Shown one piece after another: positions 6,160 to 6,848 of a DNA stretch of 64,000 nt (its first letter is position 1; each line of letters begins with the position of its first letter). The notes beneath the pieces are model-generated. The model did not search any database, was not told the DNA's origin, and worked only from the letters and a program-made list of their open reading frames with translations. The translations under genes were made by a program, and so were the position numbers. Source of the DNA: Georgenia sp. TF02-10 (GTDB taxonomy: Bacteria; Actinomycetota; Actinomycetes; Actinomycetales; Actinomycetaceae); the NCBI RefSeq assembly GCF_022759505.1, contig NZ_CP094289.1, forward strand, positions 3,162,001 through 3,226,000, written 5' to 3'.

Positions 6160-6392
6160 GACGCTGCCCTCTCGGTCTCGGCGTACCACTGGCGGAGGGT
6201 CTCGTGCGTGACGTCGATCTGGCCGTCGGTGGCCTCGTAGAGGTCGCGGGCGATGAAGCGCCAGGCGCGGCGCGTCTCGCGACGCTCGGCGATGAAGGTC
6301 TGGACGTCCTGGCCGAGCAGGACGCTGGCGAGCCTCTGTGTCGGGGTGGGGGTCTCGCTGCCGAGACCATCCTCTCGAACTTCGGAGTTCAT
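6156..6392 (-). CDS. Cro-like helix-turn-helix protein, first gene of operon
   Basis: 78 aa from ATG 6392, chosen because a well-formed promoter places transcription start on this ATG (leaderless). Residues about 35-72 contain ETRRAWRFIARDLYEATDG then IDVTHETLRQWYAE, a helix-turn-helix typical of small actinophage regulators, with THETLRQWY as recognition helix. It is divergent from the repressor gene at 6484 and heads the leftward early operon, the usual place of Cro. Role as Cro or excision control protein is inferred from position and fold. Confidence 0.7.
   Translation of the reverse strand: MNSEVREDGLGSETPTPTQRLASVLLGQDVQTFIAERRETRRAWRFIARDLYEATDGQIDVTHETLRQWYAETERAAS
6377..6390. promoter_or_regulatory. 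Palindrome GAACTTCGGAGTTC
   Basis: Perfect inverted repeat GAACT-TCGG-AGTTC over the first codons of the Cro-like gene. Its core ACTTCGGAGT recurs with one extra C at 6412-6422, about three helical turns away, inside the early promoter. The pair could be binding sites for the Cro-like protein. Inference only. Confidence 0.45.
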
Positions 6393-6399
6393 GAGCGGG

Positions 6400-6428
6400 A
6401 CACTACTCCCGACTTCCGGAGTGGTCAA
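6400..6428 (-). promoter_or_regulatory. Leftward early promoter (leaderless)
   Basis: On the minus strand TTGACC (6428-6423), 17-base spacer, TAGTGT (6405-6400), then seven bases to the ATG at 6392. Transcription would begin at or next to the start codon, so no ribosome site is needed. The -35 hexamer lies inside a perfect palindrome (6419-6434), the likely repressor operator. Confidence 0.65.
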
Positions 6429-6434
6429 CCACTC
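6419..6434. promoter_or_regulatory. Operator-like palindrome over early promoter
   Basis: GAGTGGTCAACCACTC is a perfect 16-base palindrome (seven-base arms, CA centre). It covers the -35 element of the leftward promoter. A dimeric helix-turn-helix repressor bound here would block early transcription. Sequence is directly visible; function inferred. Confidence 0.6.
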
Positions 6435-6446
6435 TAGGGACGGGGC

Positions 6447-6475
6447 TTGTCAAGATGCTTGACTGGCTCTACCGT
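6447..6475 (+). promoter_or_regulatory. Repressor promoter
   Basis: TTGTCA (6447-6452), 17-base spacer, TACCGT (6470-6475), eight bases before the repressor ATG at 6484. AGGAG lies in the gap. An inverted repeat GTCAAG-N3-CTTGAC (6449-6463) overlaps the -35 and spacer, suggesting autoregulation or Cro control. Confidence 0.55.
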
Positions 6476-6483
6476 CAGGAGAC

Positions 6484-6810
6484 ATGAGCACGCAGACGAC
6501 ACGCATCGCACCCCCGACCGGGCCGGAGGCGGAGGACACCATCCGCCGGACCGTCAAGGGGATCATGAAGGGCCGCGGTCTGACCGTCGAGGAGGTCGCC
6601 CCTCGGCTGGGCATGGCCGTGTCGACCCTCTACCGCAAGCTCGCGGGCCACGGGAACCGCGACGCCTTCCGCGCTGGCGAGGTCGCGTCGCTCGCTGACG
6701 TCCTCGGCGTCGAGGTCGGCCGGCTCTACGACGGCGCCGGCGGCATGTTCACCCCGCCCGACGGCGGGGGCTCTGTACACCGCCTGGGACTCGAACCCAG
6801 AACCCACTGA
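6484..6810 (+). CDS. Phage repressor (helix-turn-helix), 3' end inside tRNA-Lys
   Basis: 108 aa. Residues about 18-82 form an XRE-like domain: TIRRTVKGIMKGRGLTVEEV, then APRLGMAVSTLYRKLAG (turn and recognition helix), then ASLADVLGVEVGRLY. The gene is divergent from the Cro-like gene, with operator palindromes between them. From codon 98 the reading frame enters the complement of tRNA-Lys, giving the tail VHRLGLEPRTH; its stop TGA (6808-6810) lies in the complement of the tRNA anticodon stem. The C-terminus is therefore set by the junction with host sequence. In mycobacteriophages with integration-dependent immunity the attachment site is inside the repressor gene and integration yields a shorter, stable repressor; the layout here matches. 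Confidence 0.8.
   Translation: MSTQTTRIAPPTGPEAEDTIRRTVKGIMKGRGLTVEEVAPRLGMAVSTLYRKLAGHGNRDAFRAGEVASLADVLGVEVGRLYDGAGGMFTPPDGGGSVHRLGLEPRTH
6752..6769 (-). terminator. GC hairpin downstream of tRNA-Lys
   Basis: CCCCGCC-CGAC-GGCGGGG forms a perfect seven-base-pair stem with a four-base loop. It sits seven bases beyond the tRNA 3' end in the direction of tRNA transcription, and also inside the last codons of the repressor. There is no T-tract, so terminator function is uncertain; it could limit antisense transcription into the repressor gene. Confidence 0.35.
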
Positions 6811-6848
6811 TTAAGAGTCAGTTGCTCTGCCAATTGAGCTAGCGGTGC
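6776..6848 (-). tRNA. tRNA-Lys (CTT), integration target
   Basis: 73 bases. Acceptor arm GCACCGC pairs with GCGGTGT (a G-U at the first pair), D arm GCTC/GAGC, anticodon stem ACTGA/TCAGT with loop CTCTTAA (anticodon CTT), T arm CTGGG-TTCGAGT-CCCAG, discriminator A at 6776, no encoded CCA. The 3' end abuts the phage-like element, and the repressor gene runs into it on the other strand. tRNA 3' halves are the usual attB for tyrosine integrases, so this is very likely one att site of the element; the other att and the integrase would lie left of the window. Confidence 0.95.

Follow-up and report, generated by a model that had tools for sequence, protein, structure and literature searches.

The window analysed here (64,000 bp of Georgenia sp. 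TF02-10, contig NZ_CP094289.1, i.e. G000:C1:3162001-3226000) opens inside a prophage whose repressor gene runs into a host tRNA-Lys gene, the very place where an integrase would recombine. This raises the question of whether the phage obtains its active repressor only by integrating, as Broussard reportedly described in 2013 under the name of integration-dependent immunity for mycobacteriophage BPs and cluster G. Our data suggest that this ~39.3-kb temperate phage inserted in tRNA-Lys very probably uses integration-dependent immunity, an interpretation that is supported at the sequence level. The argument refers to the following features, given in window coordinates except where L009, the segment holding the left end of the prophage, is named:

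1-6774: right part of the prophage (~39.3 kb in total, continuing left of the window; PHROGs)
6156-6392, minus strand: divergently oriented gene where a Cro gene would lie (start ATG 6392; open frame from 6428)
6419-6434: perfect inverted repeat, candidate operator (7-bp arms 6419-6425 and 6428-6434, 2-bp spacer)
6449-6463: perfect inverted repeat, candidate operator (6-bp arms 6449-6454 and 6458-6463, 3-bp spacer)
6484-6810, plus strand: predicted immunity repressor gene, prophage form (108 aa; HTH_31, PF13560; phrog_2328; TGA at 6808-6810)
6775-6809: right copy of the 35-bp att common core (identical to L009 5437-5471, i.e. G000:C1:3129437-3129471, left of the window)
6775-6848, minus strand: host tRNA-Lys (anticodon CTT; ARAGORN), attachment site
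6810, plus strand: first base beyond the core, an A that gives the stop TGA; the G at the left end gives TGG (Trp) in the reconstructed attP
L009 5554 (TTG) or 5590 (ATG) to 6459, same strand as the repressor: tyrosine integrase (PF00589, E 9.1e-18)
L009 6456-7286, minus strand: second tyrosine recombinase of this prophage (PF00589), adjoining the integrase in tail-to-tail orientation

That a helix-turn-helix repressor ends inside the complement of tRNA-Lys had been claimed in a preliminary description of this DNA, and it was borne out: the repressor ORF carries the PF13560 domain (E 1.9e-6; 28.5 bits, cut-off 27), its best PHROG is phrog_2328, a transcriptional repressor (E 3.6e-7), and the complement of the tRNA predicted by ARAGORN contains the final codons together with the TGA. 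The same description named a divergent Cro-like gene with palindromic operators between the two genes, of which the divergent ORF and two inverted repeats are present. The ORF showed no significant match to protein families or PHROGs, and its name is backed by position, not by similarity. The two repeats are unlike each other, and neither of them recurs in full as a perfect copy anywhere in the window, L009 or L010; a shorter version of the one at 6419-6434, with 5-bp arms and another spacer, lies at L010 5866. With differing repeats that lack second perfect copies, an operator role for these candidates is only plausible. No consensus sigma-70 promoter was found within 6300-6900, and a terminator scan likewise found none.

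By gene content the prophage looks complete. A scan of 20 prophage proteins gave family matches to, among others, terminase, portal, head maturation protease, major head protein, head-tail adaptor, major tail protein, further tail proteins, endolysin, primase/polymerase and a RusA-like resolvase. Exonuclease, HNH and WhiB-like proteins were recognised by other family matches. The WhiB-like regulator is encoded on the minus strand at 222-845 (PF02467, E 1.7e-8).

The 3' end of tRNA-Lys had been predicted to recur to the left of the window, and the left copy lies there as an exact 35-bp repeat, 39,338 bp from the right copy; directly at either side of the two cores the flanking bases differ. When the ends are joined in silico, the core falls inside a viral repressor frame of 128 codons, in which TGA is replaced by TGG and the repressor grows from 108 to 128 aa, i.e. 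by 20 residues, at the lower limit of the 20-40 that had been anticipated. The prophage therefore owes its stop codon to the first base after the core being A, not G. Past the TGG, the viral frame ends WFRTSPADEMAEVLALPVAA, i.e. ...LALPVAA, with its stop at L009 5530-5532, while the host tmRNA tag is predicted to be ADSKRTEFALAA, ending FALAA. The viral C-terminus is thus an ssrA-like -AA tag and the degradation-like end that had been expected, with VAA differing from the canonical LAA; such a tag is among the defining features of integration-dependent immunity set out in PMC9934374, which we used as criteria.

The integrase was likewise predicted at the other end of the element, pointing away from the left att site. 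It is found there with its Phage_integrase domain, and in the reconstructed attP it follows the repressor, starting 21 bp (TTG) or 57 bp (ATG) past the new stop. Neither of the outcomes that would have spoken against the proposal was encountered: the joined attP does not keep the prophage stop, and both an integrase and a second att copy exist.

The sequence establishes that the att core is present twice, that the stop differs between the two forms, that the viral form gains a tail, that an integrase exists and where it lies, and to which family the repressor belongs. By analogy with the published systems, we infer the following switch. In attP, repressor and integrase would be co-transcribed, and the 20-residue viral tail, which resembles an ssrA tag, most likely routes the 128-aa repressor to degradation by a ClpXP-type protease. 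The integrase would recombine the 35-bp core with the 3' end of tRNA-Lys, whereupon the first host base past the core would turn Trp TGG into the stop TGA and leave a prophage repressor of 108 aa without the tag. This untagged form would be stable and active, shut the early genes and confer immunity.

The integrase connects the prophage to a large group of phages. Using a query started at 5587, one codon before the ATG, for both the family and the phage searches, we found matches in 282 of 50,697 phage records (in 262 of them the match covers at least 80% of its length), including 150 from Mycobacterium and 109 from Gordonia phages. Among the matches listed, the closest integrases are those of Barebow, GMA5, EricDab and Angel, with 45-48% identity. 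The absence of a recombination directionality factor and of arm-type sites is a further mark of such systems; in this integrase the start lies only about 10 residues ahead of the part that aligns with other integrases. At its C-terminus the enzyme ends SVAS, not -AA, so that the second proteolytic control known from BPs-type systems is not clearly present.

We compared the repressor and integrase ends with those of a panel of 12 phages, from which prophi79-1 was left out, its stretch being without the repressor. Viral repressors of the panel end in A or AS in 11 of 12 cases, with AA in 7, and integrases end in A or AS in 8 of 12 (those of Angel, Typha, PensacolaC28 and Charlie end otherwise). 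In most panel repressors the tail is preceded by a stretch resembling a translated T-arm, i.e. GLEPRT, GLEPPT, GFEPPT, DSNPEP or GSNxRP, and the passage GLEPRTRWFG of Coeur is nearly the same as GLEPRTHWFR in the Georgenia prophage repressor. PensacolaC28 shows neither an A/AS end nor a T-arm-like stretch in its repressor. An extra gene separates repressor and integrase in GMA5, Guacamole and PensacolaC28. All eight panel repressors tested (Butters, Charlie, Angel, Barebow, Coeur, Guacamole, McGonagall and Barb) have phrog_2328 as their best match, a test from which the repressors of GMA5, EricDab, Typha and PensacolaC28 were left out. A search of the viral_contigs collection found no relatives of the Georgenia repressor.

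A wider survey started from an alignment of the integrase (A1) with relatives in genome_contigs, of which 80 out of 129 were kept, nearly all actinobacterial by record title. Both ends were analysed for 40 loci, i.e. 39 of the 80 and one further copy in a Brachybacterium genome, with the remaining 41, L051 included, outside this analysis; per locus, 14-60 kb around and downstream were fetched and scanned for a repeat overlapping a tRNA. Such a repeat was present in 22 of the 40 loci, and at L088 the repeat is present with its tRNA cut by the contig end. In 18 of the 40, the tRNA complement contains the end of a repressor-like frame, so called by position; this is not an unbiased frequency since the first 21 loci were chosen mostly for an upstream T-arm-like stretch; the other 22 are without this layout in the fetched DNA. 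Micropruina, Microbacterium MYb66, Corynebacterium NML130628 and Nocardioides have the tRNA-overlapping repeat and no such frame. The short forms match phrog_2328 (threshold 0.001) in 15 of the 18 layout loci, or 16 of 19 counting the Georgenia prophage.

After joining, the viral forms end in A or AS in 11 of these 18 loci and in AA in 6, with the loci not being independent of one another; the base rates among 33,549 six-frame segments of the same DNA were 3,784 (11.3%) for A/AS and 437 for AA. The 11 loci, whose tRNAs are Arg, Asn or Lys, belong to Jiangella, Xylanimicrobium, Actinomyces, Actinotignum, Rhodococcoides, Brevibacterium, Curtobacterium, an Arcanobacterium MAG, Blastococcus, Cryobacterium and Brachybacterium. 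Of these, Brevibacterium has a tRNA-Lys core, a similar passage (GLEPGTH) and a change from Cys TGT to TGA, of the type found in BPs. No A/AS tail is gained in the other seven, i.e. four Corynebacterium loci, Schaalia, Bifidobacterium vansinderenii and one Microbacterium MAG. Integrase tails end in A or AS in 19 of the 40 loci, a count that includes a misread Jiangella tail (start set 88 bases off), against 236 of 1,406 long six-frame segments.

Several loci show variations in their own right. In the Corynebacterium prophages L204, L161, L192 and L140, the repressor frames end in tRNA-Met with GAGFEPTTSGL and gain no A/AS tail; joining changes their lengths by +28, +227, +271 and +2 residues, respectively, and the two long ones run out of frame into the integrase. 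Integrase frames of about 500-630 aa occur at L050, L068, L069 and L086 (G167, G178, G179 and G186). Each of these contains one or two further upstream regions that match the N-terminal portion of the integrase, a pattern suggestive of a repeated core-binding domain. At L088 (G187:C6, the Actinomycetaceae MAG S30M_St_11), which stands outside the 18 layout loci, the joined ends form one frame leading from an HTH repressor through a T-arm peptide into a complete integrase. Integration would split this predicted fusion, which comes from a single MAG, contains an internal ATG and may be continuous by chance; its integrase has no match in viral_contigs. The integrase found two viral contigs, L032 and L033. 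The former was rejected as an instance of the layout because its HTH gene is separated from the integrase by other open frames, while the latter entered the alignment A1. Integration-dependent immunity could be the switch on which phages with this integrase clade commonly rely for lysogeny across Actinomycetota, adapted to different tRNAs and reading frames, extending well beyond the published genera and including a fused repressor-integrase variant cut by integration (one MAG, L088, in silico), a proposal that we advance tentatively as a serious possibility.

For the Georgenia prophage itself, the counter-points to the switch include the VAA instead of LAA end, the SVAS end of the integrase and the second recombinase alongside it, to which the survey adds the seven layout loci that gain no A/AS tail and the 22 of 40 loci that do not show the layout in the fetched DNA. 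The layout could be accidental, i.e. the repressor merely happens to run into the tRNA site, both of its forms are stable and active and immunity does not depend on integration. A longer frame would indeed be expected to arise often, as joining the repressor to 200,000 random prophage positions showed: of the 113,251 junctions that met a stop, 49,951 produced a tail of 10-45 aa, and the integrase without an -AA tail fits such an accident as well. Tails of this length that also end in AA were produced by only 1,759 of the 113,251 (1.6%), so that the extension alone is unremarkable while the AA end is remarkable, and here it coincides with a correctly placed integrase. The phrog_2328 profile, being built from proteins of sequenced phages, provides an independent test of the tail: with it added, the match improves from E 3.6e-7 to 6.1e-9 and the alignment ends at residue 121 instead of 107. 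Taken with the VAA end, this family match reaching through the tail, the integrase directly downstream and the 11 of 18 comparators that combine the like layout with A/AS tails, on different tRNAs and in more than one reading frame, argue against an accident, which we regard as unlikely.

It is more improbable still that the prophage has decayed, its ends being remnants of a switch that no longer works. Such decay would agree with the occurrence of the element in one genome only, the repressor having matched its own genome and none of the other 150 in a search of 151 family genomes (E 1e-4), but the 35-bp repeats are exact, the integrase is open with its Phage_integrase domain, and the genes for terminase, portal, protease, capsid, tail, lysis and replication all have open frames. 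A search with the tRNA-Lys region in 39 genomes returned mainly tRNA genes, with no genome of the same genus among them and hence no empty site for comparison. We give just as little weight to the second recombinase being the integrase for this site and the co-directional enzyme being otherwise employed, in which case the switch could still work. Both enzymes have PF00589 and phrog_1, an integrase family, as best PHROG, and with the second one present it is order and similarity that point to the acting enzyme. Both point to the co-directional one: among the matches listed it is 45-48% identical to integrases of phages with the same or a similar layout, whereas the other reaches about 30-31% in the best 12 of 145 phage records and reads toward it.

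Integration-dependent immunity thus gains a clear added case, with a tRNA-Lys site and a host outside the mycobacteria, in which a prediction from one prophage end was checkable from the other end. The survey suggests that many actinobacterial prophages hide the true end of their active repressor in a tRNA gene, so that a repressor taken from the phage genome would be the unstable form. Moreover, T-arm sequence appears to be reused as the C-terminus of the active repressor in more than one reading frame, which makes the evolution of the switch testable across genera. That the host is not a Mycobacterium follows from its RNase PH, which is 82% identical to that of Xylanimicrobium and 79% to those of Ruania and Pseudactinotalea (among the named loci), compared with 64-65% for two Mycobacterium/Mycolicibacterium, Nocardia, Rhodococcoides and Corynebacterium.

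The idea of such a switch outside mycobacteriophages holds for the sequence layout found here, which is however not the first case, since Gordonia phages (PMC5559632) and Bifidobacterium prophages (PMC6109161) have been published. Of 27 Gordonia phages whose attP has been located, about half have integration-dependent immunity systems, including the cluster CW phages GMA5, GRU3, McGonagall and Jeanie, with attB in tRNA-Lys and 17-kb genomes (PMC5559632). The Georgenia prophage shares the tRNA-Lys attB, and its integrase is 44-46% identical to those of GMA5, GRU3 and McGonagall, but it is ~39.3 kb in size and reads the T-arm in another frame (GLEPRT, against DSNPEP in the GMA5 and McGonagall repressors). 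For the Bifidobacterium prophages Bb423phi2 and 689b-1 the system was also inferred by joining the ends in silico, with an 18-residue extension bearing an ssrA-like tag (PMC6109161); unlike the Georgenia prophage, they are 18 kb in size, use tRNA-Met and reside in another host. In titles and the opening parts of abstracts, the only survey genera among the papers listed on integration-dependent immunity were Bifidobacterium, Curtobacterium, Microbacterium and Rhodococcus (near Rhodococcoides), and for the latter three the term 'integration-dependent' does not occur in those parts. A claim for Streptomyces BC1 is based on gene order and involves a serine integrase (PMC12243558), and Arthrobacter phage Galaxy is described without the att-in-repressor feature (PMC5513430).

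In Mycobacterium abscessus, the prophage forms of the repressors lack 20-35 residues of the viral ones; the same paper describes several systems without -AA tags and says this of BPs too (PMC8092301). For BPs, gp33 shrinks from 136 aa in the virus to 103 aa in the prophage (PMC4557955), the 35-bp core lies over a tRNA-Arg where the adjacent host base turns a Cys codon into a stop, and both repressor and integrase are described with C-terminal tags (PMC9262239). The comparison of the Georgenia prophage with cluster G covered the repressor, att and integrase region, and the viral repressor of Angel ends DKAS, compared with PVAA here. While BPs uses tRNA-Arg, a Cys codon and a 33-residue extension, and the Georgenia prophage tRNA-Lys, a Trp codon and 20 residues, the 35-bp core and the stop made by the neighbouring host base are common to both.
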